Shown piece by piece: positions 11,682 to 27,281 of a DNA stretch of 64,000 bases (its first letter is position 1; every line of letters starts with the position of its first letter). The notes below the pieces were generated by a model, which saw nothing but the letters and a program-made list of their open reading frames with translations, was not told where the DNA came from and did not search any database. A program made the position numbers and the translations under genes. Origin of the DNA: Nitratireductor sp. XY-223 (GTDB lineage Bacteria > Pseudomonadota > Alphaproteobacteria > Rhizobiales > Rhizobiaceae); contig NZ_SPNT01000001.1 in assembly GCF_004959855.1 (NCBI RefSeq), forward strand, positions 248,001 to 312,000, in the 5' to 3' direction.

Positions 11682-14600
11682 ATGCACCTGCTGCTCGCCC
11701 AGAAAGGTTCGATTTCTGACGGCAACGAGGCGGTCGATCTTGGCCAGACGCCGGGCGAGATCGTCTTCCTGACGGCGGCGGACACGGAACTTGCGAGTCT
11801 CGCCAAGGCGTGTCAGGCGCTGAAAGCGGCGGCGCCGCAGGTCCGGCTGGCCAATCTGATGGAACTGCGCCATCCCATGTCCGTCGACACCTATGTCGAA
11901 CGGACGGCCCGGCACGCCAGGCTGATCATCGTGCGGGCGCTCGGCGGCGCCAGTTATTTCTCCTACGTGCTGGAAGCCCTGCATGCGGCCGCTACCCAGC
12001 AGGGAATATTGATGGCGGCCCTGCCGGGCGACGACAAGCCGGATCCGGGCCTCGCCCAATTCAGCACGATGGCCGCAGAAGATGTCGACGCGTTGTGGCG
12101 TTATCTCGTTGAGGGCGGCGCGCCCAATACGGTCTCCTTCCTGAACTATTGCTCGGCGCTGCTCGACGGTTCGGAGCGGCCACCGGCGGCGGTGCCGCTG
12201 CTGAAATCAGGCCTGTGGTGGCCGGGCGCGGACAATCCGTCGATCGACGACGTGGTTTCCCGGGATGACAGGCGCCCAGTGGTGCCGATCTGTTTTTACC
12301 GAGCGCTGGTTCAGAGCGGCCAGACGCAGCCGGTCGAAGCACTGATCCGGGCGCTGCAGGCCGAAGGCATGCAGCCGGTGCCGATCTTCATCTCCAGCCT
12401 GAAGGATCCGGTCTCGGTCGCAACCGTCGAAACGCTGTTCGCAGGATGTCCCCCCGATGTCGTCGTCAATGCCACCGGCTTTGCGGTCTCGTCTCCGGGC
12501 GGGTCGCGCAAGCCGACGGTTCTGGAATCGACCGGGGCGGTGGTGCTGCAGGCGATCTTCTCCGGTTCGACACGGGACGCCTGGCAAGAATCGGCGCAGG
12601 GCCTGACGGCGCGTGACCTTGCGATGAACGTGGCGCTGCCCGAGGTCGACGGGCGGGTGCTCAGCCGCGCGGTCTCGTTCAAATCGGCGACCTTCTACGA
12701 TGAGGCGGTGGAAGCCAACATCGTCACCCACGAGCCGCTTGCCGACCGTGTCGCCTTTGTCGCCCGGCTGGCCGCCGGCTGGGCCCGGCTGCGGCGGCGT
12801 ACCGAAAGCGAGCGGCGCGTCGCGCTCATTATGGCCAATTACCCGAATCGGGACGGGCGGCTCGGCAACGGCGTCGGGCTCGATACGCCCGCCGGGACGA
12901 TCGAGGTGCTGCGCGCTCTGGCGGCCTCTGGCTATGCGCTCGACGAGGTGCCCGGCGACGGCGACGCGCTGATGCGCCACCTCATGGCCGGCCCCACCAA
13001 TGCCGCCGTCGATGCGCGGGACATCCGCGAAACTCTCGATCTCGCGGCCTACCAGAGTTATTTCGAAAGCCTTCCACAGATCATTCGCGAGGCGGTCCAG
13101 GCGCGCTGGGGAGAGCCGGAGGACGATCCCTATTTCCTCGCTGGTCGCGCTGCCTTCGCCCTGCCGCTCGCCCGCTTCGGCCACGTCGTGGTCGGTATCC
13201 AGCCGGCGCGCGGCTACAACATCGATCCGAAGGAAAGCTACCACTGCCCGGATCTCGTGCCGCCGCACGGCTATTTCGCCTTCTACGCCTTCCTGCGCGC
13301 GCAGTTCGGCGCCGACGCCATTGTGCACATGGGAAAGCACGGCAATCTCGAATGGCTGCCCGGCAAGGCGCTGGCGCTTTCCGAGGCCTGTTATCCCGAG
13401 GCCCTGCTCAGCGCGGTGCCGCATCTTTATCCGTTCATCGTCAACGATCCGGGCGAGGGGACGCAGGCGAAGCGGCGCACGGCCGCCGTCATCATCGATC
13501 ACCTCACACCGCCGCTGACCCGCGCTGAAAGCTACGGGCCGCTGAAGGATCTCGAGGCGCTGGTCGACGAATATTACGAGGCGGCGGGCGGCGATCCGCG
13601 CCGCCTGCGGCTCCTGAAAGGGCAGATCCTCGACCTCGTCCGCGATATCGGCCTCGATATGGATGCCGGCATTGCCGAGAGCGACGGCGACGATACCGCG
13701 CTTGCAAAGCTCGATGCTTATCTGTGCGACTTGAAGGAAATGCAGATCCGCGACGGCCTGCACATTTTCGGCAAGGCCCCGGAAGGCAGGCTGCTCGACG
13801 ACCTGGTCTGCGCCCTGGCGCGGGTGCCGCGCGGCCTCGGCGAGGCGGGCGACGCCAGCCTGCAGCGCGCCATTGCCGACGATCTCGGCCTTTCGTTCGA
13901 TCCGCTCGACTGCGAAATGGCGGCGCCCTGGAAGGGACCGCGGCCGGACCTTTTGACCGGGGTGAGTGACGAATCGTGGCGCACGGCCGGCGACACCGTG
14001 GAGCGGGTGGAACTCCTCGCGCAAGCCCTCGTTTCGGGCTCTGTTGCATGTCCAAAGGACTGGAAGGCTGCGGCGTCCGTGCTCGCCGAAATCGACGAGA
14101 ACCTGCGGCCCGCGGTGCAGCGGTCCGGCCGCGCCGAGATCGATGGGCTGATGGCGGGCCTTTCCGGGCGATTTGTCGAACCCGGCCCGTCGGGGGCGCC
14201 GACGCGCGGGCGCCCGGACGTGCTTCCGACGGGGCGCAATTTCTATTCGGTCGACAGCCGCAGCGTGCCGACGCCGGCGGCCTGGGAACTCGGCAGGAAA
14301 TCCGCCGAGATGCTGGTTGCCCGCTACACGCAGGACAATGGCGAGTGGCCGACCTCCTTCGGCCTGACCGCCTGGGGCACGTCCAATATGCGCACCGGCG
14401 GCGACGATATCGCCCAGGCGTTGGCCCTGATCGGCGTCAAACCGGTATGGGACCACGCATCGCGCCGGGTGACCGGATACGAGGTCATCCCGCTTGCGGT
14501 CCTCGGCCGCCCACGCGTCGATGTGACCCTGCGCATCTCCGGCTTCTTCCGCGATGCGTTTCCCGACCAGATCGCGCTGTTCGACAAGGCAGTGCGTGCC

Positions 14601-15440
14601 GTCGGCGCGCTGGAAGAGGACGAAGCGGACAATCCCGTCGCGGCACGCATGCAAAGCGACAGGAAATCGCTCATTGCAGCGGGCGCGGATGAACAATCCG
14701 CTTCGGAACGGGCCGGCTATCGCGTTTTCGGCTCGAAGCCCGGAGCCTATGGCGCCGGACTGCAGGCGCTGATCGACGAGAGGGGCTGGCAAACACAGGC
14801 GGATCTTGCCGAGGCCTATCTCGTATGGGGCGGCTATGCCTACGGCGCCCAGGCTGAAGGCAAGGCCGAACGGCAGCAGTTCGAAAGGCGTCTGCGGGGT
14901 GTCGAGGCGGTGGTACAGAACCAGGACAACCGCGAACACGACCTTCTCGACAGCGACGACTACTACCAGTTCGAGGGCGGCATGACGGCGGCGGTCGAGA
15001 CGCTGTCGGGCGCACGCCCCGCCATCTATCACAACGATCATTCGCGGCCCGAGAAACCGGTGATCCGGACGCTCGATGAGGAAATCGCCCGGGTCGTGCG
15101 CGGCCGGGCGGTCAATCCCAAATGGATTGCCGGCGTCATGCGTCACGGCTACAAGGGCGCATTCGAGATCGCCGCCACGGTCGACTACCTGTTCGCCTTC
15201 GCGGCGACGACGGGCGCGGTGCGCGACCATCACTTCGAGGCCGTCTACAAGGCTTTCGTCATGGACGACGCCGTGCGCGAGTTCATCGAGGAGCACAATC
15301 TGCCGGCCCTGCGCGAAATCGCCGAGCGGCTTGAAGAGGCGATCGACAGGGGTCTTTGGACACCGCGCTCCAATTCGGCGCGGTTCGGTCTCAAGGCGCT
15401 GGCCGGCAAAACGGAGGAAAGGCTGTCGGGACATGGCTGA
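11682..15440 (+). CDS. cobN: Cobaltochelatase subunit CobN
   Basis: This 1252-residue large subunit of the ATP-dependent aerobic cobaltochelatase inserts cobalt into hydrogenobyrinic acid a,c-diamide together with CobS and CobT, which are not in this window. The start MHLLLAQKG at 11682 lies seven bases after the cobW stop; the frame is open back to 11490 only inside cobW. The CobN/BchH signature IVHMGKHGNLEWLPGK is present near the middle, and conserved motifs run to the C-terminus without disruption. The length agrees with known CobN proteins (about 1275). A very long open frame on the opposite strand is a composition artefact. Confidence 0.96.
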   Translation: MHLLLAQKGSISDGNEAVDLGQTPGEIVFLTAADTELASLAKACQALKAAAPQVRLANLMELRHPMSVDTYVERTARHARLIIVRALGGASYFSYVLEALHAAATQQGILMAALPGDDKPDPGLAQFSTMAAEDVDALWRYLVEGGAPNTVSFLNYCSALLDGSERPPAAVPLLKSGLWWPGADNPSIDDVVSRDDRRPVVPICFYRALVQSGQTQPVEALIRALQAEGMQPVPIFISSLKDPVSVATVETLFAGCPPDVVVNATGFAVSSPGGSRKPTVLESTGAVVLQAIFSGSTRDAWQESAQGLTARDLAMNVALPEVDGRVLSRAVSFKSATFYDEAVEANIVTHEPLADRVAFVARLAAGWARLRRRTESERRVALIMANYPNRDGRLGNGVGLDTPAGTIEVLRALAASGYALDEVPGDGDALMRHLMAGPTNAAVDARDIRETLDLAAYQSYFESLPQIIREAVQARWGEPEDDPYFLAGRAAFALPLARFGHVVVGIQPARGYNIDPKESYHCPDLVPPHGYFAFYAFLRAQFGADAIVHMGKHGNLEWLPGKALALSEACYPEALLSAVPHLYPFIVNDPGEGTQAKRRTAAVIIDHLTPPLTRAESYGPLKDLEALVDEYYEAAGGDPRRLRLLKGQILDLVRDIGLDMDAGIAESDGDDTALAKLDAYLCDLKEMQIRDGLHIFGKAPEGRLLDDLVCALARVPRGLGEAGDASLQRAIADDLGLSFDPLDCEMAAPWKGPRPDLLTGVSDESWRTAGDTVERVELLAQALVSGSVACPKDWKAAASVLAEIDENLRPAVQRSGRAEIDGLMAGLSGRFVEPGPSGAPTRGRPDVLPTGRNFYSVDSRSVPTPAAWELGRKSAEMLVARYTQDNGEWPTSFGLTAWGTSNMRTGGDDIAQALALIGVKPVWDHASRRVTGYEVIPLAVLGRPRVDVTLRISGFFRDAFPDQIALFDKAVRAVGALEEDEADNPVAARMQSDRKSLIAAGADEQSASERAGYRVFGSKPGAYGAGLQALIDERGWQTQADLAEAYLVWGGYAYGAQAEGKAERQQFERRLRGVEAVVQNQDNREHDLLDSDDYYQFEGGMTAAVETLSGARPAIYHNDHSRPEKPVIRTLDEEIARVVRGRAVNPKWIAGVMRHGYKGAFEIAATVDYLFAFAATTGAVRDHHFEAVYKAFVMDDAVREFIEEHNLPALREIAERLEEAIDRGLWTPRSNSARFGLKALAGKTEERLSGHG

Positions 15441-16071
15441 AAAATCGGACAAACTCAAGAACCTCTCGGAAGAGGAACTGAACGCGCGGCACGCCGAAAA
15501 GATGAAGAAGAAGAAAGCGGCGCGCGACAAGATCATCGCCACCAAGACCATCGAGAAGGGCCTGACGATCATCCACAGCGGCAAGGGCAAGGGCAAGTCG
15601 ACCGCCGCCTTCGGGATGATCTTCCGGGCCATCGGCAACGGCATGAAGGTCGGTGTCGTGCAGTTCGTCAAGGGCAAGTGGGGCACCGGCGAGCGCAAGG
15701 TGCTGGAGGCGTTTCCCGAGCAGGTGACGCTGGCGACGATGGGCGAGGGCTTCACTTGGGAGACGCAGGATCGGCAACGCGACATCGCGGCGGCCCGTCA
15801 GGCCTGGGAGAAGGCCAAGGAGATGATCCTCGACGATAAGCACGACATGGTGCTGTGCGACGAGCTCAATATCGTGCTTCGCTACGACTACCTGCCGGTC
15901 GAGGAGATCATCGAGACCCTGAAGCAGAAGCCCGAGATGAAGCATGTCATCATAACCGGCCGGAACGCCAAGGAGGAACTGATCGGTTTCGCCGACCTGG
16001 TGACCGAGATGGAGATGGTCAAGCACCCGTTCCGGTCGGGGGTCAAGGCCCAGGTGGGGATCGAGTTTTAG
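15433..16071 (+). CDS. cobO: Cob(I)yrinic acid a,c-diamide adenosyltransferase
   Basis: This 212-residue CobA/CobO-type corrinoid adenosyltransferase attaches the 5'-deoxyadenosyl group from ATP to cobalt(I). The P-loop GKGKGKST is at residues 50-57, and an Arg/Lys-rich N-terminal region typical of CobO precedes it. The ATG overlaps the end of cobN. Its last 28 codons (15988-16071) recur in shortened, diverged form at 17925-18002, beyond a lower-GC insert, so the 3' end of this gene appears to be a recombination or integration boundary. The protein itself looks intact. Confidence 0.95.
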   Translation: MAEKSDKLKNLSEEELNARHAEKMKKKKAARDKIIATKTIEKGLTIIHSGKGKGKSTAAFGMIFRAIGNGMKVGVVQFVKGKWGTGERKVLEAFPEQVTLATMGEGFTWETQDRQRDIAAARQAWEKAKEMILDDKHDMVLCDELNIVLRYDYLPVEEIIETLKQKPEMKHVIITGRNAKEELIGFADLVTEMEMVKHPFRSGVKAQVGIEF

Positions 16072-16252
16072 GGCTGGGCTCGTTGATCGAGGCAACTAGA
16101 TTGCACGAACGGCAATTGGCAGGAATGCGGACGAAGCTGCCGTTCATCTCTGCGCAGTGAAAGCCATTTTGGACTCAGATGTTGCGAAGCAAGAAAGACG
16201 GAAAACAGGCGAGTTCGAAGACTCCGGTTGGAATCTCTCGGATAGCTTGCGC

Positions 16253-16786
16253 TCATTCAACCTTTCGCCCAAACCACATACGGCCCATCAAGCGGTCCTG
16301 GCGCACGAACTGGTGGTAGGCCCACCCCAACACGTGTAGAGCGATCAATAGCAACAAAAGCGTGGCTACAATCCCGTGCGCTGTACGCGCAGCTATGTCA
16401 TTGAAACTGGCAGGCAAAGCCGCGTCTGAACCACCGAATGCGATGGCGAAAACATCCGCAGAAAAGGCAATCCCCAGGCCGCTGGCTACCATCGCAAAAA
16501 CCAGCACATACAGTGCCGCATGCGCAACCTGCGTTCCAAAGTTGAGCGTGGGATGTCCGGTGTCCGCAAGAGGCGGCTTGCGTGTAAACACACGGATCGC
16601 AAGACGAGCCAACATCAGCCCGCCAATGCACAGGCCCCATATCATGTGCCCGGTGAGCGCGGTGATCTTTTGCGGATCAGAGTTCTTCATGTCCGCGAGC
16701 ATCGGTCCGCCAACAATCAACGAAATGAGGATCATGATCGCGACAAGCCAATGAAGCACTACAAGCAAAGGGTGATATCTGTTCAT
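16253..16786 (-). CDS. Cytochrome b561-family membrane protein
   Basis: This encodes a 177-residue four-helix inner-membrane b-type cytochrome, likely passing electrons from quinol or another donor. Four hydrophobic helices are visible, with candidate haem-ligand histidines in LHWLVA (residue 12), GHMIWG (about 47), AHAALY and ALHVLG near the C-terminus. Length fits bacterial cytochrome b561 / YceJ proteins. It is divergent from a LysR regulator 144 bases away, which probably controls it. GC is lower than in the flanking cob genes, consistent with acquisition by transfer. The physiological partner is unknown. Confidence 0.85.
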   Translation of the reverse strand: MNRYHPLLVVLHWLVAIMILISLIVGGPMLADMKNSDPQKITALTGHMIWGLCIGGLMLARLAIRVFTRKPPLADTGHPTLNFGTQVAHAALYVLVFAMVASGLGIAFSADVFAIAFGGSDAALPASFNDIAARTAHGIVATLLLLLIALHVLGWAYHQFVRQDRLMGRMWFGRKVE

Positions 16787-16900
16787 CGAACGTTTCCTTG
16801 TGAAGCCGACACGCGAGCAACGCTCCCTTTGTCCGCGGTCTATTTCGATGCGATTTAACAGATGGCCATTCGGTCAAGAATATAACAAAATAGAATGTGC

Positions 16901-16918
16901 TGTTACAAATGTGGAACA
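16901..16918. promoter_or_regulatory. Candidate LysR operator between divergent genes
   Basis: TGTT (16901-16904) and AACA (16915-16918) form an interrupted inverted repeat with a T-rich/A-rich layout typical of LysR-type boxes. It is 13 bases before the LysR start in the cytochrome b561/LysR intergenic region. Assignment is by pattern and position only. Confidence 0.35.
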
Positions 16919-16930
16919 CATGGCAACGAT

Positions 16931-17800
16931 ATGAGATCATTTGATTGGGAGCTACTGCCATATTTTCTTGCTGTCGCCCGGACGGGCAGCTTGCGCGCCG
17001 CGGCAAGCACGATCAACGCAAGCTATGGAACCGTAAACCGAAACATCCAGGCGCTAGAAGCCAGCTACGGCGTCCGCCTGTTTCACCGCTCCAAACGCGG
17101 GTTCGCTCTCACCGAGTTCGGAGAGGCTTTGCTGCCTGTTGTTGAGGATGCCGAACAAACTATTCTGGCCGCGCGCAAAAAGGTGGAAGGGCTGGACAGG
17201 AGCGAGTCGGGTACAATCCGCTTCTCGCTTTCTCCGACACTCGCCTATGACTTTGTCGCGCCAATTATAGGGCGCTTTCATGAAAAGTACCCGAAGATCG
17301 ACATCGAATTTCACCTAACGTCGGAAGTTGAATCCATCACCAACGACGAAACCGACGTCTCGCTTCGCGCTGCTGAGAGCGTCGTAGATGATGTTGTTGC
17401 ACGAAAGCTCTTCAGGCTGATTTTGGGTGTCTATGCGAGTGAGACCTACGTTCAAAACGTATTCCCGAACTCAGGCCGTCAGGGCGAAGGGTTGAGTTGG
17501 ATTGGATTAGCTGACGAAAACTGGCGCCCACCGCCGATGTTCCAGATGGCCCAAATGCGGCACAGGGTGAGCGACGGTTATATGCGTGCTTGCCTGTTGA
17601 ACCAGCATTGCGGGATGTCGCCTATGCCAACCATATTCGAGAGTTCATTTCCAAACCTTCGCCGCGTGCCGGGTACAGATTTGTCAAAAGGTCCATGGCT
17701 ATGGATCTTGCTGCATTCTGATCTTCAAAAGACAGTACGGGTTCGCAGATTTGTCGACTTTCTGGCAGAGGAACTGCTCTCTTTGAAGCGTGCACTGTAG
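16931..17800 (+). CDS. LysR-family transcriptional regulator
   Basis: The product is a 289-residue LysR-type regulator. The N-terminal winged helix-turn-helix covers about residues 1-60 (FLAVARTGSLRAAASTINASYGTVNRNIQALE), and the rest is the substrate-binding domain. The ATG at 16931 is preferred over upstream in-frame codons because the HTH then begins at the usual distance from the terminus. It diverges from cytochrome b561, its likely target. Base composition is clearly more AT-rich than in the neighbouring genes, as expected for transferred DNA. The inducer is unknown. Confidence 0.88.
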   Translation: MRSFDWELLPYFLAVARTGSLRAAASTINASYGTVNRNIQALEASYGVRLFHRSKRGFALTEFGEALLPVVEDAEQTILAARKKVEGLDRSESGTIRFSLSPTLAYDFVAPIIGRFHEKYPKIDIEFHLTSEVESITNDETDVSLRAAESVVDDVVARKLFRLILGVYASETYVQNVFPNSGRQGEGLSWIGLADENWRPPPMFQMAQMRHRVSDGYMRACLLNQHCGMSPMPTIFESSFPNLRRVPGTDLSKGPWLWILLHSDLQKTVRVRRFVDFLAEELLSLKRAL

Positions 17801-17924
17801 TTTACAATCGATGGCATTCTGGAACGCTCATCAATCTCGCAAAGTCGAGCTTTGCCGCAACGCAGTGGCGGACACTCGCTGCGGCGCAGCGAAAGCCTGC
17901 TCTTTGTATGAACTTCCGCGTCAT

Positions 17925-18002
17925 TTCGCCGACCTGGCGACCGAGATGGTCAAGCATCCGTTTCGCTCCGGCGTCAAGGCACTGGTGGGGATCGAATTTT
18001 AG
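17925..18002 (+). pseudogene. cobO 3'-end remnant (26 codons)
   Basis: This stretch encodes FADLATEMVKHPFRSGVKAL and then VGIEF-stop, matching the C-terminus of cobO. Against the intact gene (15988-16071), 69 of 78 aligned bases agree and two codons are missing. Of the nine substitutions, seven are silent and two change residues (V to A, Q to L). There is no start or upstream cobO sequence, so it is a displaced 3' end rather than a gene. It ends four bases from the convergent histidine kinase stop. Confidence 0.85.
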
Positions 18003-18005
18003 AGC

Positions 18006-19007
18006 CTATGCGCTGTCCGAAAACCGTATCCGGAACGTGACCGGATCCGGCGAATGCAGCGTGATCGTGCTGTTGGCCGAGGCGAGCAGGGCAATGGCGA
18101 TTGCCAGTCCGAGGCCGGTTCCGCCCTCCTGCCGCCGCGTCGAGAAGAACGGCGTGAAGAGCTTCTCCCGCGCTTCCTCTGACACCGGCTCGCCATTGTT
18201 GACAAGGTCCAGCACGTCGTCTTGCGGCATGCGCATTGTCAGTGCTGTCGCTCCGTGCCGCAGCGCATTGTCGGCAATGTGGTGCATGACGATCGCCGCG
18301 CTTTCGGGCGAAAGCGGAATGGCCGCGCCTTCAGGCGCTTCGACCGACACCGCGAGCTTGGCGAAATCCGAAGACAGCTTTTCGGCAAGCGCCGCCAACT
18401 CCGCACGCCCATCGCCGGTCGCAAGATCCGCCCGGGCGAGATCGCGCATCCGGTTGGCGAGTGCCGACAGTTGTTCGGCATCGCTGATGATGTTTTCGAG
18501 GAACTGTTGCCGTTTCGGCGCCTCCATTGCGGCGGCATCGTCCCGCATCAGTTCGGCCGCTCCGCGTACGGAGGTGAGGGGAGACTTCAACTCATGCGCA
18601 AAGTGCGCGGAGAGCGTTTCAAGATACCGCGAGCGTTTCTGGAGACGCCTGACGAGAACAGAAAAGTCTTCCGCAAGCTGCGCAACCTCGCGGGTGCCGT
18701 AGGGCGCGTCCGTGTCGAAGGTGCTGTGGCCCCTGGCGACGGAATCGGTGGCCTGGGCAAGGATCTTCAACGGACGGGAAAGACCGCGCCAGAAAACATA
18801 GGTGGCCGCCGCCGTCGCGACGGCGACAACAATCAGCGCCAAGGCGATCTTGCCCCAGTTCGCGACGAGACTGGCGATCAGTTCGTCCGGCTGTTTCATC
18901 ACGGCGACGACAACAGCCATCGCAAAGGTCGGCATCACAAAGAGCAACGCGACGAAGCCCGTGACGATGAGGGCAAGCGGCGGGCGCCATTTCTGCCGGA
19001 CGCTCAT
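18006..19007 (-). CDS. Sensor histidine kinase (CreC-like)
   Basis: The product is a 333-residue two-component sensor kinase in the inner membrane. Two transmembrane helices (about residues 11-34 and 53-73) flank a very short periplasmic part; then come a HAMP region, the phospho-acceptor box AHELKSPLTSVRG (His about 139), the N-box IADNALRHG and the G-box GGTGLGLAIA. It overlaps the response-regulator gene by four bases, so the two are a pair. With so little periplasmic sequence, the signal is probably intramembrane or supplied by a partner such as the DUF4173 protein encoded upstream. Confidence 0.9.
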   Translation of the reverse strand: MSVRQKWRPPLALIVTGFVALLFVMPTFAMAVVVAVMKQPDELIASLVANWGKIALALIVVAVATAAATYVFWRGLSRPLKILAQATDSVARGHSTFDTDAPYGTREVAQLAEDFSVLVRRLQKRSRYLETLSAHFAHELKSPLTSVRGAAELMRDDAAAMEAPKRQQFLENIISDAEQLSALANRMRDLARADLATGDGRAELAALAEKLSSDFAKLAVSVEAPEGAAIPLSPESAAIVMHHIADNALRHGATALTMRMPQDDVLDLVNNGEPVSEEAREKLFTPFFSTRRQEGGTGLGLAIAIALLASANSTITLHSPDPVTFRIRFSDSA

Positions 19008-19720
19008 GGGTCCTCTTGCGGCGATGCAATGGTGCAGGCGCCGAGACGGAAACCCAGCCGCGGCACGGTTTCGATGACATCGCTGCAGCCGGCGGCGGCA
19101 AATTTCGATCGCAGATTGCGGATGTGGCTGTCGATCGTCCGGTCCGACACATGGATGTTGCCGTCATAGGCGAATTCGATGATCCGACCACGGCTGAACA
19201 CCGTGCCGGGACGTTTCAGCAATACCTGCAGGATCGACATTTCCAGCGCCGTCAGGGAAAGCCGGTCCCCGTTGCAGGTCGCCTCGGCCCGGTCGGAGTC
19301 AAGGCAAACGACGCCGTGGGACAGGGCGCTCCCGCGTGCCTCCTGCTTCGGCCCGCTCCTTCGCAGGATGGTCGAGACGCGCGCCGTCAGTTCGCGCGGG
19401 CTGAAGGGCTTCGTCACGTAGTCGTCGGCGCCCATTTCGAGGCCGACGATACGGTCGACCTCCTCGTCGAGCGCCGAAAGAAACAAGATGGGCAGGTCGC
19501 TGAAACGGTCCTCTGAGCGCAGCAGGCGGCACACTTCCAGCCCGTCCCGCTTCGGCAGGCCGACATCGAGGACGATCAGATCGGGATTGCCGCTGCGCGC
19601 CATCATGAGCGCCTCGTCGCCGTCGCCGGCGCGGGACACTAGGTGCCCCGCACGTTCCAGCGCGAAGGCCACGACATCGATTATGTGGGGATCGTCATCG
19701 ACGACCAGAATGAGGGCCAT
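19004..19720 (-). CDS. OmpR-family response regulator (CreB-like)
   Basis: This 238-residue response regulator has an N-terminal receiver with the acidic pocket VVDDDP, the phospho-acceptor Asp in LIVLDVGLP (about residue 52) and the Lys in YVTKPFSP. The C-terminal winged helix (about 140-230) carries RTIDSHIRNLRSKF, the DNA-recognition part of OmpR/PhoB proteins. It is co-transcribed with the kinase downstream and overlaps the DUF4173 gene upstream by 26 bases. TGCAC repeats upstream of the operon are its candidate binding sites. Confidence 0.92.
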   Translation of the reverse strand: MALILVVDDDPHIIDVVAFALERAGHLVSRAGDGDEALMMARSGNPDLIVLDVGLPKRDGLEVCRLLRSEDRFSDLPILFLSALDEEVDRIVGLEMGADDYVTKPFSPRELTARVSTILRRSGPKQEARGSALSHGVVCLDSDRAEATCNGDRLSLTALEMSILQVLLKRPGTVFSRGRIIEFAYDGNIHVSDRTIDSHIRNLRSKFAAAGCSDVIETVPRLGFRLGACTIASPQEDP

Positions 19721-21323
19721 GTTCCACCGTGTCGTTCAAAACAGCGCCGGCGTTGCCGTCCGCATCGGCAACCGGCAATAGTGGCGTCACCTTTCTCAAT
19801 ATGCGCGCTCCTCGCCAACTCCACGAATGCCAATCGGACTGGCTGCGTTCCAGAGCTTTGTACCGGCATCGAAAACAGTCTCCCAGACGGGTTGTCCACA
19901 GATCAACATGTTTGTTGTCATCGATGAAGGTTGCGATGGCGATCAGGGCGCCGTCGCCCAGTTGGCACAGATAGTCAATATCCACCGATGATAGCAGGGC
20001 ATCGAGCGAGCGCGCATCTTCGGATGCGAATTTGGCGCGTTCCACATTCTTGCGGGCGATGTAACCGTCAAGATTGAGCGCGCCGCACGCAAATGCGACG
20101 GCGGTCAGGACGAGAAGGCACCGGCGCGTCAGCCAACGATTGGACTTATTTCGGGCGATGCGCAGGATCACCAGCACCAGCCCGGATCCGATGAGACCCA
20201 TGCCGATGAAGGTGTAGAGCCGCAGCCGTGTGAGGCCGTAGACATCGACGTAAAGATCGAGCCTCGCGGCCGCCGACGCCAGCAATAAAATGGTCTGGAG
20301 CACCCAAAGAACGATCAGCGGGACGACGAGGTCGCCGGACGATTTTCTGGCGTCGTCCTTCAGGAGGGCGAGGATGATGGCCGCGGCGAGCAGGGTGGCC
20401 GCCAGCAGCGGGAAGGCGCCGGCCTTGGCGAATTCGGCATAGGTCTTGCCTTCGGGAAGCAATGTGCCGGAGCCGGCGCCCAGAAGGAAGCCCGGCCAAA
20501 GGTTCGTCATGTCGTTCAGGGTCTGCAGGAAAAAGACCGCGTTGAAGAGGATCAGCACCGCGGCCCGGTTGTTTGCGAAAACCGGTCTCGCTTGCCGGGT
20601 GCGGCTTTTGACGGCGCGCCACCGCCCATCCTGACGTTTCATCTCTATCGTCAGCAACGGCCAGAGGAGAAGCCCGGTCGCCAGCCACAAGAGCACGGTC
20701 GAAATGTCCGGCAGCGCGATCCACCTCAAGGGATCGAGATAGGCAAGCGAGACCGCAAGCCACGGGTTGGCCGGCAGGAACAGCCACAGGAAGACAGCCA
20801 CGAGCAGAACCGGCATGATCCATTGCCGGATGCCGTGTCTGCGGGTTTTCAGGCCGCCGAACCAGGTTCCGGCGAGGAAAAGGCCGGATGCGATCTCGCG
20901 AACGGCAAGGATCGGCCCCGCCAGGTAGCGGTAGAGGAAAACACCGGCCTTCCGCCAGTCCTCATCCAGCAACCTGTCGGCGCGGCCCAGGGCGAACAGG
21001 CCAAGGAAAACGATTGCCAGTAATATCGTCAGGAAATCGGCGGATTCCACGATGAGCAGAATGCCCGCCAGCGCTGCGCAGCCCCACAGAAGCGCGTTCC
21101 GGTTCCTGTATTTCACCGCGACCACGACGGAAAGGGCCGTCATGAAAACAGCCAGACCGGCACCGATTTCCTGATGAAACACGGTGAGTTGCGCAATGGC
21201 CAGAAGGCCGACCAGTTGCAGGAGCCAGACGCCGGTCCGGGCGTCGACAGGCCTCGGTTTGCGCCGTGCCGTCCCCTGATGCGGGACATCCATTCGGCTT
21301 GAAACGGAAGGATGGTCTGTCAT
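19695..21323 (-). CDS. DUF4173-type polytopic membrane protein
   Basis: This encodes about 542 residues with many hydrophobic helices from about residue 30 to 430, followed by a soluble C-terminal region of roughly 110 residues that includes VERAKFASEDARSLDALL and a Trp-rich SDWHSWSWR near the end. The central part resembles DUF4173 proteins, whose function is unknown. The start ATG at 21323 overlaps the stop of a small upstream gene (ATGA), and its end overlaps the response-regulator start, so all four genes form one operon. A role as membrane partner or target of the two-component system is inferred from that. Confidence 0.75.
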   Translation of the reverse strand: MTDHPSVSSRMDVPHQGTARRKPRPVDARTGVWLLQLVGLLAIAQLTVFHQEIGAGLAVFMTALSVVVAVKYRNRNALLWGCAALAGILLIVESADFLTILLAIVFLGLFALGRADRLLDEDWRKAGVFLYRYLAGPILAVREIASGLFLAGTWFGGLKTRRHGIRQWIMPVLLVAVFLWLFLPANPWLAVSLAYLDPLRWIALPDISTVLLWLATGLLLWPLLTIEMKRQDGRWRAVKSRTRQARPVFANNRAAVLILFNAVFFLQTLNDMTNLWPGFLLGAGSGTLLPEGKTYAEFAKAGAFPLLAATLLAAAIILALLKDDARKSSGDLVVPLIVLWVLQTILLLASAAARLDLYVDVYGLTRLRLYTFIGMGLIGSGLVLVILRIARNKSNRWLTRRCLLVLTAVAFACGALNLDGYIARKNVERAKFASEDARSLDALLSSVDIDYLCQLGDGALIAIATFIDDNKHVDLWTTRLGDCFRCRYKALERSQSDWHSWSWRGARILRKVTPLLPVADADGNAGAVLNDTVEHGPHSGRR

Positions 21324-21511
21324 TTTTTTGACGAGTCCCGCTGCCGTTGAATCGATGGACCAGCGACCGGCGTCGAACGTTCCGAAATGAGCCACCAGCC
21401 GTCCCGCCGCAGGCGATCGGGCAAAGGAGCCGTGTTGGTCACAACGTGAAGGGGCGGGTTGGTTTGGCGAACCGGGTGCGATCCGGGAAAACGGATGATC
21501 TCTGCTGACAT
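21320..21511 (-). CDS. Small hypothetical protein, first gene of two-component operon
   Basis: The product has 63 residues starting MSAEIIRFPG and containing the hydrophobic patch DGWWLISERSTPVAG. The ATG at 21511 is chosen because GGGGA lies just upstream; in-frame starts up to 21523 are possible. Its stop overlaps the DUF4173 start in an ATGA arrangement, strong evidence that it is translated and coupled. No family is recognised and no membrane helix or signal peptide is evident. Confidence 0.65.
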   Translation of the reverse strand: MSAEIIRFPGSHPVRQTNPPLHVVTNTAPLPDRLRRDGWWLISERSTPVAGPSIQRQRDSSKK

Positions 21512-21560
21512 GGTCATCCCCATGGCGGTTAATCGGAACTGCCGAGGCTAGGAAAACACC

Positions 21561-21620
21561 GTGCAGGCAACCGGACGCGCCTGTGCAGGCCATCAGGATT
21601 GTTGTGCAGAAGCTGTGCAG
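21561..21620 (-). promoter_or_regulatory. Phased TGCAC repeats, candidate response-regulator sites
   Basis: Read on the plus strand, GTGCA occurs at 21561, 21583, 21604 and 21615: spacings of 22, 21 and 11 bases, close to whole helical turns. The last two form TGCAC-N6-TGCAC on the minus strand, the same layout as the E. coli CreB site TTCAC-N6-TTCAC. They lie 50-110 bases upstream of the operon encoding the OmpR-type regulator, so autoregulation is plausible. Confidence 0.5.
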
Positions 21621-21689
21621 TCTTCGTCGCGCGCCGCGGGAATCGCGTTCAGGGGCCGGTTTCGCTCCCGGCCCTATCCCTGGTCGGCG

Positions 21690-23045
21690 TCAGATCCGGC
21701 GCCGTTTCAATGGCGAAACGAGATCGTTTATGTCCGGCAACTCTTCGAGCCGCGTGATCCGGTCGATGACGTTTGATGCCTCGTCGTCCTTTGCGAAGAA
21801 GAAATACGTGCGGAGCTTGTCCTCGATTTCCGCATCGCTTAGCGGATCGGCCGGATCGCCGCGCGGGCAGTCGCGGGAGGCTGTTTCCTTTGTTCCGTCG
21901 GCGCGCGTGACGGTGATGCTGCAGGCCGATTTGGCCGGAAACGCGGCGGTCATGGACGCATCCTCGGCGACGGTGACCTTGGCCATGAGATCGTTCAGGG
22001 TCGGATCGCCGGAATAGGGCGGGTCGAAATCCTGATAGGCGATCGAACCCTTGGCCAATACGGCCGCCACGCAGTAGGGCAGCGAATGGGTCCGCCCGGC
22101 GCGACTGTCCGGCTTCCATGCGGTTTCGCCGGCGGCGATATTGACACACATCTCATAGGTGCCGACGTCGATCTTTTCGATCGATGCCGGATCGCCGATC
22201 TTCGGCGCAAGCTCGAGGGCGACGTCGATCGGGGTCTGGCAGAACACCAGAGCGGGCCAGCGTTTAAACACGACCGAACCGAGGTCGGGCGTCAGATCGA
22301 ACATCTTTTCCGAATGGGGGAAGAAGCGGTTCACGCCGGCCGTTCCCTGGTAAATCTCGTAGGGCCCTTCAATGCCGGCCTTTGCCATCTTGGCCGCAAA
22401 CAGTCCGCGCAGGGCGCAGGACGCGTAGGTGCAGTGCTTCCAGTCCGTCACCCGGTCACGGGCCGACTGGTTGGTATCGAGCCCCAGGCCGCCGGCTATG
22501 CGCTGGGCGTTGGTCAGTTGCTCGGGTTCGAGATCGAGCGCGCAGCCGATGATGAGCGTCGTATAGAAGATCGCCGCGGCGTCGTGATCGTACTCGACCG
22601 ATTCCGGGAAATAGTAGTCGGAGAAGAGACCCGCCAGCATATATGCCAAGTGGGTCAGCCCAAGCACATCGCGGCCGGATTTGCCCAGCCAGTCGGCGAG
22701 CGACAGGATCAGGGACACATTGTCCGAAGGGTGGGCGACACCCATGTTGTTCGGCGAAAAATAGGTGTTGAGCAGATCGCTGCGCCGGCCGAGGATTGCG
22801 TTCAGGAAGATCGCGTCGGCATGGGTTCCCGTCTTACCGGTTCCCCAGACATCCACACCGCTGGTGACCGGGGCGATGTCGATCATGCGGTCGAACTTGC
22901 CGACCATCTCGGTGTCATACAATGATCCGCAAATGCCTGCGTAGGAATCCAGAATGTTGCGTTTCAGGATGTGGGCGGTATCGGTGTCGACCTGCGCCTT
23001 GAATGTGTCGACGGCGAATTGGGACAGTTTTTCTTCAATGAGCAT
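21690..23045 (-). CDS. MmgE/PrpD-family protein
   Basis: This 451-residue protein belongs to the MmgE/PrpD family, which includes 2-methylcitrate dehydratase and cis-aconitate decarboxylase. The family layout is visible: an all-helical N-terminal part (ILDSYAGICGS, then NAILGRRSDLLNTYF and HPSDN), and a smaller C-terminal alpha/beta domain from about residue 270. It has no prpB/prpC neighbours, and its start overlaps the SnoaL-like gene upstream by 11 bases, so a methylcitrate role is unlikely. The substrate is unknown, probably a small carboxylic acid. Confidence 0.8.
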   Translation of the reverse strand: MLIEEKLSQFAVDTFKAQVDTDTAHILKRNILDSYAGICGSLYDTEMVGKFDRMIDIAPVTSGVDVWGTGKTGTHADAIFLNAILGRRSDLLNTYFSPNNMGVAHPSDNVSLILSLADWLGKSGRDVLGLTHLAYMLAGLFSDYYFPESVEYDHDAAAIFYTTLIIGCALDLEPEQLTNAQRIAGGLGLDTNQSARDRVTDWKHCTYASCALRGLFAAKMAKAGIEGPYEIYQGTAGVNRFFPHSEKMFDLTPDLGSVVFKRWPALVFCQTPIDVALELAPKIGDPASIEKIDVGTYEMCVNIAAGETAWKPDSRAGRTHSLPYCVAAVLAKGSIAYQDFDPPYSGDPTLNDLMAKVTVAEDASMTAAFPAKSACSITVTRADGTKETASRDCPRGDPADPLSDAEIEDKLRTYFFFAKDDEASNVIDRITRLEELPDINDLVSPLKRRRI

Positions 23046-23451
23046 CTTCGTCGGCCCTCACCAGATTGAGGTAAATGAATACCTCGACGAATTTTCCGTT
23101 CTTGAGGGTGTAGAATGCTGCACAGTGGCCCCAGAAAACGTCCCCCGCCTTGCGGTGTCCGAGATAGTCGGTGTCTTTGAAACACCGCCACTCAATGTCG
23201 AGCTGGACGGCAACCTTGTCTTCGACGGAGAGGAAATTCTTCAGGTGCAAGAGCTCGTGGATGCCGTCGTGGCCGGAATTCTTCCCCGAATTCCAGAAAC
23301 CGACCAGCTGGTCCTTTCCTCTGAAGGTGCCCTTGAAAGGATGAATGAACACAGCGTCTGGATCGTAGAACCTGTCAAAGAACGCACTCTTGTCGGGGGC
23401 GTTGTTGAACTCGTTTTCGTATGCTTCGAACTGGTCTTGCGTGAATATCAT
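23035..23451 (-). CDS. SnoaL-like (NTF2-fold) protein
   Basis: This 138-residue protein has the cone-shaped NTF2/SnoaL fold signature: helical start YENEFNNAPDKSAFFDRFYDPDAVFIHP, then strands around HLKNFLSVEDKVAVQLDIEW and GHCAAFYTLKNGKFVEVFIYLN. Such proteins act as small isomerases, hydrolases, dehydratases or binding proteins. It overlaps the MmgE/PrpD gene, so the two are coexpressed and may act on the same molecule. No catalytic assignment is possible from sequence. Confidence 0.8.
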   Translation of the reverse strand: MIFTQDQFEAYENEFNNAPDKSAFFDRFYDPDAVFIHPFKGTFRGKDQLVGFWNSGKNSGHDGIHELLHLKNFLSVEDKVAVQLDIEWRCFKDTDYLGHRKAGDVFWGHCAAFYTLKNGKFVEVFIYLNLVRADEDAH

Positions 23452-23614
23452 TTTTCGTTATCCGTTAGGTCTATATAAAGGTCGAGCGGTTGGCTCGGGT
23501 CTATCGTAGATAATCCTTGGATGCTATGGGTTGATGACGTAATTGAGGCGAAGTGCGATCAGAAGTTGAGCCGTGTGGGCACGTGTTGGCAAACAGTCGG
23601 CAATTTCCGTTCGT

Positions 23615-24454
23615 CTACCGATCGCCGTCGATGAAGGCCGCGTAGGCCTCCGCGTAGTCCGGATGCCAGCGGCTCAGCGCCGGGCGGTTCTCGATCATGT
23701 CGCCCATGGCCCAGGCGATGCGCTTTTCGTCGAGCGCGCGGGGGACGTCATTGTCGGGGCAAATGATGTAGAAATCGCCGCGGGCCATGCTCTCGACGAA
23801 GAAATCGGCGGTCTGCCCGGCGGTCCAGGCGGCCGGCGGCTTCTCGGCAAGCCCGATCATGCCGGTATGGACGAAACCGGGGATCAAGAGGTGGGCGCTG
23901 ATCCGGCAGTCATCGGTGTTGCGAAGTTCGTGCGCGAGCGCCTCGGTAAAGGCCTTCAGCGCCGCCTTTGAAACGTTGTAGGCCGGGTTGCCGGGCGGCG
24001 TGGTGATGCCCTGCTTGGAGCCTGTATTGACGATGGCGCCCGGCCTGCCGCGCGCGATCATGCGCGGCGCGAAAACCTGCGTGCCGTGAACGGCGCCCCA
24101 AAGGTTGACATCCAGCGTCGATTGCCAGGCATCGAGCGGGCCGAGGCAGGACGAGCGCATGCCGATGCCGGCATTGTTCATCAGGATGTCCGTGCCGCCG
24201 AAGCGGGTCGCAACCTCGCTTTCGAGCGCTTCGACCTCTGCCCTGTCGGAGATGTCGGTTGCGGCCGTCATGACGTCTGCGGCACCGGCGGAACGCAGGG
24301 CGCTTTCCGCTTCAGCGAGCTTGTCCTCGGCGCGGTCAACGATCACCAGCCTCATGCCCATGCCGGCGAAGTTCGTCGCCGAAGCCAGGCCGATCCCCGA
24401 CGCCCCGCCGGTAACGACGGCGACCGATTCGGAATTGAACGCGGGGTGGGTCAT
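23615..24454 (-). CDS. Short-chain dehydrogenase/reductase
   Basis: This 279-residue NAD(P)-dependent SDR has the cofactor motif TGGASGIG at about residues 15-22, an Asp after the second strand (VIVDRAED) and NNAGIG. The catalytic array is the Ser of NTGSKQG with YNVSK (Tyr and Lys), as in classical SDRs. The ATG at 24454 follows AGGAGGATGCTTC, an excellent ribosome-binding site. It is divergent from an AraC regulator 249 bases away and lies upstream of the SnoaL-MmgE pair, separated by 163 bases. The substrate is unknown. Confidence 0.9.
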   Translation of the reverse strand: MTHPAFNSESVAVVTGGASGIGLASATNFAGMGMRLVIVDRAEDKLAEAESALRSAGAADVMTAATDISDRAEVEALESEVATRFGGTDILMNNAGIGMRSSCLGPLDAWQSTLDVNLWGAVHGTQVFAPRMIARGRPGAIVNTGSKQGITTPPGNPAYNVSKAALKAFTEALAHELRNTDDCRISAHLLIPGFVHTGMIGLAEKPPAAWTAGQTADFFVESMARGDFYIICPDNDVPRALDEKRIAWAMGDMIENRPALSRWHPDYAEAYAAFIDGDR

Positions 24455-24569
24455 GAAGCATCCTCCTGTTTGGCAGTTAAACTAGCGGGTGGAGAGGGAA
24501 GGGCAAACGGGGAGTCCCGGCCGGGAACTCTTTGGCCGTCAATCGTTGGGGCTTTGCCGTCCGACAATC

Positions 24570-24601
24570 TTGGACTGTCACTGGTTTGGGGACTTGTCCA
24601 A
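24570..24601. promoter_or_regulatory. Inverted repeat in the SDR/AraC intergenic region
   Basis: TTGGAC (24570-24575) and GTCCAA (24596-24601) form an inverted repeat with a 20-base spacer, centred between the divergent SDR and AraC genes. It could be a regulator site, but six-base half-sites occur by chance. Confidence 0.25.
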
Positions 24602-24703
24602 TCGACGGTGTTCGCTAGCATCATCGCCGGCCAAGTGCCTTTTGCACCTGGTACAGGAGCAATAAAATCCATTCTGTTTGGCTCACAGTCGCTATGGTGG
24701 GTT

Positions 24704-25765
24704 ATGACCACTCCAACCGCATCCAGCTATCTCGTGGCGCATCTTGTCGCGACGCTGAAAATGCTGGGTATTGATGCCACTCCGGCGCTGCACTCCGCGG
24801 GTATAGATAAAGTCGTGCTGAGCGATCCCGACACTCGGTTGCCCATCACAACCGTTTTTCGCTTCTGGTGTGCGGTTGAGGACATGACAGGGGATCCGCT
24901 GATTGGTCTGAAGACCGCAGCAAATGTCGAGGCGGGATATCCCGTATTCAGGCACCTGTTGTCTAACAGCCCGACACTCTCGGTGGCTTATGAACGCTGG
25001 AGCCGCTTTTACCGTCTGATATCAGGCGCCGCTGAAATTCGTTTGGTGCGGGATGCTGACACGCCGATGCTTGTCTGTGAGCCGGCGACGCCCCATGCGC
25101 TGCCCGCGCTTGGCGAAGATTGGACGGTTGGTCAATGGCTGACGCTAGGAAGGCGGCTCACGGGACGGGACTGGCGACCAAAGGCGCTCTGGCTGAAACA
25201 CACCGACTTTGGTGCGGCTGCAGCCTATCGCAAATGGTTCGCAGCGCCGGTGACATTTGGTGCAGATTCCGCGGCAATGGCACTCCCGGCAGAGATTCTC
25301 GAGTTCGAAATCCCGGGCGCTGATGCAACCTTGCTGGATGTCCTTGATCGGCATGTCGGCGACATGATCGCTCACATGCCCGCGGCCCGGAGCACGGCGT
25401 CTGTTCTTCGCGGCCTTCTGGCCAAACGTCTTGCCGAAGGACGGACTACTCATGCCGGTGTGGCTTCGGAACTCGGCATGAGCGAACGCACATTGCAGCG
25501 CCGCCTCAACCTGGAAGGAACGACGTTTCGGACAGTGTTTACCGAAGTGCGGCGTGATATTGCCGAGGCGACGCTCTCTGATCCCGACATCTCGCTTGGC
25601 GAAACGGCATTTCTACTCGGATTTTCCGAACCGAGCGCTTTTCATCGGGCGTTCAAGCGCTGGACCGGCCAAACCCCGGCAGCCTACCGGGCGAAACACT
25701 CGGCAGTGCTTTTGGCGGGAGCTGTCAATGATCTGACGGCTCCGGTCAATGATCGGGGCGACTGA
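24704..25765 (+). CDS. AraC-family transcriptional regulator
   Basis: The product is a 353-residue regulator. The first ~200 residues match the arabinose-binding-like N-terminal domain seen in OruR/ArgR-type AraC proteins, and the C-terminal ~95 residues carry the double helix-turn-helix, with GVASELGMSERTLQRRLN as the first and ISLGETAFLLGFSEPSAFHR as the second. The ATG at 24704 gives the family-typical start; the frame is open far upstream only as a shadow of the SDR gene. It probably controls the divergent SDR or the small membrane protein downstream. Confidence 0.88.
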   Translation: MTTPTASSYLVAHLVATLKMLGIDATPALHSAGIDKVVLSDPDTRLPITTVFRFWCAVEDMTGDPLIGLKTAANVEAGYPVFRHLLSNSPTLSVAYERWSRFYRLISGAAEIRLVRDADTPMLVCEPATPHALPALGEDWTVGQWLTLGRRLTGRDWRPKALWLKHTDFGAAAAYRKWFAAPVTFGADSAAMALPAEILEFEIPGADATLLDVLDRHVGDMIAHMPAARSTASVLRGLLAKRLAEGRTTHAGVASELGMSERTLQRRLNLEGTTFRTVFTEVRRDIAEATLSDPDISLGETAFLLGFSEPSAFHRAFKRWTGQTPAAYRAKHSAVLLAGAVNDLTAPVNDRGD

Positions 25766-25810
25766 CGTTCCTAAATTGACTTCATCGATCTCGAACCGAT
25801 GGAGAACGCA

Positions 25811-26212
25811 ATGATCGCATTCATCCCCGCAATCATTTTCTGGCTGATAGCGATATGCTATCTCAATGGTGCAATAATCCACGCCGCGAATATTCTCGGA
25901 TTTTCCGGCTATGCCTGGCTCGACGCACCGCTGAAATGGCAGGTGCTGGACGTTTTCTACCTGATCCTCAACCTGACCGTGGTGATCGGCTTGCTGATGG
26001 GTTGGCGTGCCGGCCTCATTGCCTTTTTTGCCGCCGCAACAACCCAGCTTCTTCTCTACACAGCTTTACGCGGTTGGATCCTCGACGTGCCCGCGCATTT
26101 CCTGAAGGCCGGCGCTGACGGTTCTCTGAACGGCCTTCTTGTCTTTCATGCAGTAACGGTGATGCTGGTCTTCCTGGCGCTGTGGCTCAAATCCGCTCCC
26201 GCAACCGCGTGA
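25811..26212 (+). CDS. Small polytopic membrane protein, unknown function
   Basis: This encodes about 133 residues with four hydrophobic helices (around residues 1-22, 41-63, 64-84 and 104-126). An ATG at 25811 with GGAGA just upstream is preferred over the in-frame ATG at 25799, which would place that ribosome-binding site inside the gene. It follows the AraC gene by 45 bases on the same strand and may be co-transcribed. No family is recognised. Confidence 0.65.
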   Translation: MIAFIPAIIFWLIAICYLNGAIIHAANILGFSGYAWLDAPLKWQVLDVFYLILNLTVVIGLLMGWRAGLIAFFAAATTQLLLYTALRGWILDVPAHFLKAGADGSLNGLLVFHAVTVMLVFLALWLKSAPATA

Positions 26213-26306
26213 GGTGCCATTGTTGTTCAGAGCCTTGGTTGGGTCTGGCCGGGACCGACGAGATACTGTCCGCGATTTCCTCGGCGGTCCGCGCCCTAGC
26301 CTTGCA

Positions 26307-26678
26307 TCAGGGCACGTCGCTGTTGAAAATGGAGACGCTGACCTTCCAGGAGCCGTCCGGCTGCCGTTTCAGGATGTTCACGAATTTACCCTGCTCGGGC
26401 GGGTCGGCGTCGGCAATCGCGTAGGTTCCGATTTGGTAAGCCAGATCACCCTCGACACCGTAGCCCACCAACTCATTCGTGTGTGTGCCGCCGGTGTTCT
26501 GCCTCATCCGGTCCCGGTAGGTTTCGACGAAGGCCTCTCTTCCGCGGACCATCGGCTGGTCGGGAGGCAACAGTGTCACGTCTTCGGTAAAGAAGGCAGC
26601 ACATCCCGCTGCATCGCCCCGGTTGAACGCTTCGTTGTAGGCGGCGTCAGAGTCTTCCAGAAATTCTTTCATGCCCAC
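26307..26678 (-). CDS. SnoaL/DUF4440-like NTF2-fold protein
   Basis: The product has 123 residues with the pattern of stand-alone NTF2-like proteins: DAAYNEAFNRGDAAGCAAFFTEDVTLLPPDQPMVRGREAF, a conserved middle strand and a C-terminal PDGSWKVSVSIFNSD. The GTG at 26678 follows AAGGAGAAAACC at ideal spacing; an ATG six bases downstream is the alternative. Such proteins can be isomerases, detoxifiers or binding proteins, and nothing here fixes the ligand. It converges on the small membrane protein gene. Confidence 0.78.
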   Translation of the reverse strand: MGMKEFLEDSDAAYNEAFNRGDAAGCAAFFTEDVTLLPPDQPMVRGREAFVETYRDRMRQNTGGTHTNELVGYGVEGDLAYQIGTYAIADADPPEQGKFVNILKRQPDGSWKVSVSIFNSDVP

Positions 26679-27047
26679 GGTTTTCTCCTTCCGTCAAAAA
26701 ACGTGCAGTCGCATCATCGAATTTACCGGGTTCGATAATGATCAGTTATCGGTGGAAGCGAAGTACAATCACTCGGTATTTCCCGCCCGATCCGGCAAGC
26801 CATTGCATGTCCTGTCGACACCATGTCGCGAATGGCGCGCGATCCGCCGCGATTGTGTTTGACGCCACAAACCGCTTTGCCTACAAACAGTCCTGCGTGT
26901 GACGGCGCCCGATTCCAGCGGGCTGAGAGAAATTCCGGTGCGGCCGACCCAAACAGGGGGTCAATTCCGGAGCTGTCCAGACCGGACCGGCGGGTTTCGG
27001 CCCTCCGCGGCGTTTCGTGCACGACAAATGCCAGCGGGGTGATCCGG
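26679..27047. other. 369-base gap before the second cobalamin operon
   Basis: No gene is supported here. It should contain the promoter of the DUF6732-cbiX-cob operon. A stretch at 26928-26993 has an AATTCCGGAGCTGTCC segment that faintly resembles part of a cobalamin riboswitch, but the B12 box and the GCCACTG and CCCGCAACTGT blocks are missing, so it is not called as one. Confidence 0.4.
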
Positions 27048-27281
27048 ATGACACGACTATTGTGTGCTTCAGCAGTTTTCCTTTCTTCGGCCGGCGCGGT
27101 CCACGCGCATATAGGCCATGTCGGCGAACTGGCCGGCCACGCCCACTGGGTGGGCATTGCCGCGGCGCTGGGCGCCGCCGCGCTCGCGGCACTGGCGGCA
27201 AAAGCCGGCAAGAAAGAACCCGAGGAAGAGCAGCCGGACGCCGAGGAAGCGAGCGGCGAGCCCGAGAGCACACAGGCATGA
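27048..27281 (+). CDS. Small membrane protein next to CbiX (DUF6732-like)
   Basis: This 77-residue protein has an N-terminal signal-like segment (LLCASAVFLSSAGAVHA), a His-containing stretch (HIGHVGELAGHAHW), one transmembrane helix rich in Ala/Gly, and an acidic, charged tail. The histidines could bind a metal. GGGGTG lies at proper distance before the ATG at 27048. The stop overlaps the cbiX start (ATGA), so it is translationally coupled to a cobalt chelatase. The layout fits small proteins annotated as DUF6732 beside cobalamin genes; a cobalt-related role is inferred from context. Confidence 0.7.
   Translation: MTRLLCASAVFLSSAGAVHAHIGHVGELAGHAHWVGIAAALGAAALAALAAKAGKKEPEEEQPDAEEASGEPESTQA

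Follow-up and report, generated by a model that had tools for sequence, protein, structure and literature searches.

A decayed second copy of the cobO 3' end in a variable gene interval of Nitratireductor sp. XY-223

Genes between cobO and cbiX

The window analysed here is a stretch of 64 kb from the genome of Nitratireductor sp. XY-223 in which the cob cluster breaks off after cobO and resumes some distance downstream. The cobO gene itself (15436–16071, plus strand), which encodes a corrinoid adenosyltransferase, is intact; its product matches the Pfam family CobA_CobO_BtuR with an E-value of 1e-67 and is 95% identical to the protein of the sister genome G007. The DNA that directly follows the cobO stop codon (16072–16100, plus strand) resembles the flank found in G007, with an anchored alignment score of 12 and a BLAST alignment that extends to 16100. 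Further to the right the interval contains a displaced and decayed copy of the cobO 3' end, 26 codons long (17925–18002, plus strand), with a left and a right insert on its two sides. The left insert holds a cytochrome b561 gene (16253–16786, minus strand; PF01292, E 5.6e-21; GC 55%, GC3 0.64) and, divergent from it, a gene for a LysR-type regulator (16895–17800, plus strand; Pfam HTH_1 and LysR_substrate), the frame of which is open from 16895 and contains another in-frame ATG at 16931. The right insert includes three genes on the minus strand that encode a sensor histidine kinase (18006–19007; Pfam HisKA, HATPase_c and HAMP), a response regulator (19004–19720; Pfam Response_reg and Trans_reg_C) and a DUF4153 membrane protein (19695–21593; PF13687, E 5.4e-48). 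The remaining cargo spans 21690–26738 and comprises genes for MmgE/PrpD, SnoaL and SDR proteins and an AraC regulator, a small unassigned ORF and a SnoaL/DUF4440 gene. The cob cluster resumes at 26821–28387 on the plus strand with a conserved leader, a DUF6732 gene and CbiX (Pfam DUF6732 and CbiX), and the genes after CbiX in the conserved block are presumably cobH and cobL. The distance from the cobO stop codon to CbiX is 11200 bp.

A reading made earlier from the sequence alone (the sequence-only reading) had placed a lower-GC segment with b561 and LysR between the two copies of the cobO end, and the composition bears this out, with GC contents of 55% for b561 and 53.5% for LysR against a window mean of 63%. 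The GC3 of this pair is likewise low (0.59–0.64, compared with 0.72–0.81 for the kinase, response regulator and DUF4153 genes). Low GC3 values are also found further right, in the AraC gene (0.60) and the small ORF (0.67), and composition is uneven throughout the interval.

Upstream of DUF6732-CbiX, the segment 26821–26990 is conserved in G026, G004 and G007. Its comparison with Rfam returned no family and one chance-level match, and it may represent a leader of the cob genes that has yet to be described. The sole Rfam match in the window at the gathering score is a cobalamin riboswitch (RF00174, 8749–9092, 56.3 bits) located upstream of the cob genes.

Variation of the interval among relatives

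The block that begins at 26821 in the window lies about 60 bp downstream of cobO in G004, a member of the same genus, and about 20 bp downstream of it in G026, a member of the same family. Since the cob cluster resumes right after cobO in these relatives, the DNA from 16072 to 26820, about 10.7 kb, is extra here. The sequence-only reading was thus right that acquired DNA which relatives lack lies beside cobO, and it underestimated the size of that DNA, which it had put at 1.9 kb. The distance between cobO and cbiX was measurable in nine of 13 relatives and ranged from 0.5 to 11.2 kb: 475 bp in G026, 592 bp in G004 (from a partial cbiX match), 920 bp in G003, 2064 bp in G011, 2990 bp in G031, 5306 bp in G007, 6688 bp in G017, 7144 bp in G005 and 11240 bp in G097. 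In the other four (G006, G001, G002 and G009), no cbiX block was present within the 9.5–19.3 kb downstream of cobO that were examined. Three of these genomes belong to the same genus (G006, G001 and G002; loci L041, L042 and L043) and have no cbiX-cobH-cobL block within about 19 kb after cobO, which suggests a split or rearranged cob cluster.

The cargo differs from one relative to the next between the same conserved flanks. G003 has a formaldehyde-activating enzyme at this place, G005 a peptide transporter, and G031 a sugar dehydrogenase with TauE. The G007 interval contains a zinc dehydrogenase, an SDR and a PNPOx-like protein, and that of G097 an unrelated b561, an IS4/5-type transposase and a LuxR-type two-component pair. 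The SDR gene is common to the window and G007 at the same site (84% DNA identity over 892 bp), so that some of the cargo was probably in place before the two lineages separated. A search of 151 family genomes with the insert DNA gave matches in three, the window's own genome included, and the other two matches are confined to 46 and 335 bases within the LysR stretch. The G097 fill of the site occupies 11.2 kb (L181, 7667–18900), and in it the different b561 adjoins the IS4/5-type transposase.

No integrase or transposase was identified by Pfam among the 11 proteins of the window's interval, one of which belongs to no family, in agreement with what the sequence-only reading had stated, and no mobile-element genes were found there. 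Among 24 proteins chosen from the intervals of seven relatives, the scan being confined to genomes other than G006, G001, G002 and G009, there was no integrase and one transposase, that of G097. No tRNA was found in the 64 kb of the window. Related bacteria keep different cargo between cobO and the cob block, and the site is an integrase-free hotspot. Many hotspots without an integrase, with recombination at the flanking core genes, are described by Oliveira et al. (2017, PMC5635113), who propose double exchange at flanking core genes as the route by which such hotspots are filled. The site analysed here resembles the hotspots as they are described there in its variable cargo between the same conserved genes, the absence of an integrase from this interval and the related donors that are implied.

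The kinase was searched for in 8 genomes of the genus, 394 of the family, 297 of the order and 289 of the class (overlapping sets) and in plasmids. Within the genus, matches at E ≤ 1e-40 occurred in only two of the seven other genomes, at 36% identity. The best match outside the window's genome had 57% identity (G097 and G048), the best plasmid match among the matches listed had 41.5%, and a protein search of genome contigs gave 79 loci with distant kinases, of which the one with the best E-value was 32% identical and short stretches reached up to 50%. The sequence-only reading had proposed looking for a relative that lacks the insert and has cobO abutting the kinase; no such relative emerged. 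Twelve places with kinase homologues were inspected, for the most part with about 1.5 kb of flanking DNA, and cobO lay beside the kinase in none of them, the G097 kinase running into a contig end on the relevant side. Given the weak matches in the genus and the absence of cobO beside the homologues, the kinase looks acquired. The kinase, response regulator and DUF4153 genes were linked in all ten places found in the family and order searches. They form a travelling three-gene module (18006–21593 in the window; L054–L061, L175 and L176 elsewhere) with kinase identities of 40–57%.

For LysR, the best match outside the window's genome in 247 family genomes and plasmids had 56% identity. Three places with LysR homologues were inspected; cobO lies within about 1.5 kb of none of them, and only one (G145) has b561 next to the LysR homologue, the divergent b561-LysR pair recurring there at about 55% identity. 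The genomes searched yielded neither an allele with cobO followed by b561 and LysR alone nor one in which cobO directly precedes this kinase.

The cobO 3' end and its displaced copy

We refer to the last 84 bp of cobO (15988–16071) as WL and to its 78-bp recurrence at 17925–18002 as WR. The alignment of the two, which reproduces the positions and the match count of the sequence-only reading, has 69 of 78 bases identical and a gap of six bases, or two codons. Seven of the nine differences are silent third-position changes and the other two are second-position changes (Val to Ala and Gln to Leu), so the silent excess and the two missing codons reported earlier hold as well. WL and WR form the top direct repeat by size found by a repeat search of 14000–20000, and in a self-BLAST of the whole 64 kb window they score 88.7 bits, against 38.3 for the runner-up pair. 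Of the last 60 bases of WL, 52 match WR, compared with a maximum of 34 in 200 dinucleotide shuffles. Homology to cobO begins at a novel joint with the LysR-side DNA at 17923–17924 and is absent upstream of it. The WR stop codon (18000–18002) and the stop codon of the kinase gene on the minus strand (18006–18008) are separated by three bases, not four as first counted. Searches by protein and by DNA found no additional cobO end in the window's genome, and no second cobO end like WR was present in the available cobO-region DNA of 13 relatives. These relatives gave only weak inverted matches to the cobO tail, one of 32 bp in G003 (E 0.05) and one of 34 bp in G097 (E 0.005), the latter lying at L181 11810–11842 and matching that genome's own cobO tail.

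The sequence-only reading took the present cobO end for the imported one and WR for the old native end. Several comparisons speak against this assignment. In eight 78-bp windows along cobO the identity to G007 is 0.86–0.94, with 0.90 in the last window, and there is no jump in identity along the gene, including the tail, in a genus sample of eight genomes. None of seven other relatives is closer than G007 in any of the eight windows, two of them being ties at two decimals (the window identities cover eight of the 12 fetched relatives and the flank comparison 11 of the 12). The 29 bp past the WL stop codon align with G007 at a score that is equalled by two of 1000 random window positions and is reached by none of ten other relatives. 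Since WL tracks G007 along cobO and is followed by a G007-like flank, WL is likelier to be the native end; this evidence is modest, as the pattern would be the same with a donor from within this small clade.

The tail tree proposed earlier as a check, built from 59 tails and 84 columns and with 39 of its 56 inner branches left open, pairs WL with the tail of G011, a member of another genus, at a support of 98/89 and not with that of G007, the tail most similar to WL (92%). WR is left unplaced, and a grouping of WL and WR as sisters is not rejected (p-AU 0.229), with the tree held to this grouping 23 log units lower. The pairing with G011 agrees with an origin in which the host carried cobO(WR) next to the kinase and a foreign piece with WL, b561 and LysR crossed over in cobO, stranding the old end. 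Such an event is mechanically simple, needing a single homologous crossover, in cobO, and a single joint without homology, and it would account for the more foreign composition of the b561-LysR pair in terms of GC3. Against it, WL is about as near to G007 as is the rest of cobO and the DNA past its stop codon is G007-like, and the kinase, which would be native in this case, has matches at E ≤ 1e-40 in only two of the other seven genus genomes, at 36%, and lies next to cobO at none of the 12 places. We regard an imported WL as rather unlikely, and as the most serious of the alternatives.

WR is a decayed former cobO end. The comparison set comprised 57 distinct tails, drawn from 61 cobO loci in related genomes, and all seven of the silent bases of WR are present among these tails. 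The Gln that is changed to Leu in WR is invariant in all 57, none of which has Leu, and the two codons absent from WR are retained by all 57, while the Val-to-Ala change is found in two of them. The sequence nearest to WR is WL, and among the 57 tails it is that of G007 (67 of 78 bases). In neutral simulations starting from WL, two or fewer amino-acid changes among nine arose with P 0.0006–0.004 (0.06–0.4%), varying with the assumed transition bias, and in 0.25–1.2% of cases with eight changes; if only five of the changes fell on the WR side the figure rises to 10–18% and the test loses its power. The silent bias, together with silent bases that are seen in other tails, points to a former working cobO, and most likely WR descends from that of a close relative and decayed later. 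The earlier claim that the second copy had been a real cobO end under selection, and not a duplicate that decayed in place, is supported by the simulation and the seven silent variants. The WR reading frame is open over just 71 codons, and WR is therefore not gene-like now.

The same observations bear on the proposal that WR arose within the genome as a duplicate of WL, for example as a by-product of repair, and drifted afterwards. In its favour, WL is the nearest tail to WR, a clade of the two is not rejected, and the six bases missing from WR correspond to a single unit of the perfect GAGATG repeat that WL contains. The silent bias for eight or nine changes argues against a duplicate, although it has no power for five, and so does a glycine codon at which WR has GGC, the form in 42 of the 57 tails, where WL has the rarer GGG (five of 57). 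We consider such a duplication improbable.

Genomic islands at gene 3' ends are bounded by attL and attR, with the 3' end of the gene repeated on both sides of the foreign DNA. A site-specific element that entered at the cobO 3' end, its attL and attR being WL and WR and its integrase since lost, would match the direct repetition of a gene 3' end around low-GC cargo, but is very improbable, as there is no integrase in the window's interval or among the 24 proteins of relatives, the repeats differ at nine of 78 bases and by a 6-bp gap where a near-identical core would be expected, and none of the 13 relatives, filled ones included, has a comparable second cobO end. An excisable element bounded by WL and WR was rejected as unlikely in view of the missing integrase and the imperfect repeats. 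Among the papers listed for cobO with genomic islands or integration sites, no title reports integration at cobO. A cobO gene carried by a cyanophage is described in PMC2784084.

Origin of the displaced end

We lean towards reading WR as the scar of an unequal join between two alleles of one integrase-free hotspot. The interval would then hold two cargo sets end to end, one consisting of cobO(WL)-b561-LysR and the other of cobO'(WR)-kinase-response regulator-DUF4153 and onward. Ordinary homologous recombination would have paired the DNA of one allele with the other at one end only, which could be the left, within cobO, or the right, within genes common to both such as the SDR or cob genes. The opposite end would have been joined without homology at 17923|17924, just before the stop codon of cobO in the second allele. 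Of that cobO, the terminal 78 bp would have survived as a scar, which would then have decayed because cobO already had an intact end. An intact cobO, a first cargo, a stray tip and a second cargo, in the same orientation and order, are the expected outcome of an unequal join of two alleles; the uneven composition across the interval means that several independent insertions could yield the same layout.

Homology-facilitated illegitimate recombination has reportedly been the subject of papers on Acinetobacter, pneumococcus and Pseudomonas. One-sided joining is known experimentally from the work reported in PMC3240628, and a mechanism with one homologous and one non-homologous end, as it is described there, would give the anatomy seen here. 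Both the fusion of two alleles and this mechanism are what we infer from the scar, the parents not being found in the genomes searched. In Vibrio T6SS arrays, one-sided joining has been proposed to shift the old 3' end of a gene downstream (PMC5361080). As that account has it, a new effector-immunity or Rhs module that shares the upstream part of the gene displaces the old 3' end, much as is proposed for cobO; the displaced piece in Vibrio is itself effector or immunity cargo, whereas the piece left behind at cobO comes from a housekeeping B12 gene, is of no use and has no relation to the cargo. The locus also differs from the hotspots described in PMC5635113 in that a core-gene remnant records the unequal join, where a clean double exchange would leave none. 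The stray tip probably marks the junction of two acquired gene sets, at a site where relatives also gather additional genes. As a fossil of ordinary DNA exchange, it adds an example to a known kind and does not represent a novel type of element.

The consequence for the locus is modest, as cobO is intact and the B12 cluster is merely stretched. The gain of DNA by integrase-free hotspots has largely been inferred from flanking-gene statistics, as set out in PMC5635113, and a flanking-gene tip left to decay within the cargo documents one such event physically. The signature can be searched for across genomes as a stray tip of the upstream core gene that is silent-biased and then decays. It is possible, if doubtful at present, that integrase-free hotspots grow by stacking, with two alternative cargo alleles being fused and not exchanged for each other, and each fusion leaving a core-gene 3' tip as a datable mark. 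The idea is testable, and one case is no proof of it; if it is true, a genome-wide search for stray core-gene tips in hotspots would count such events and place them in order.
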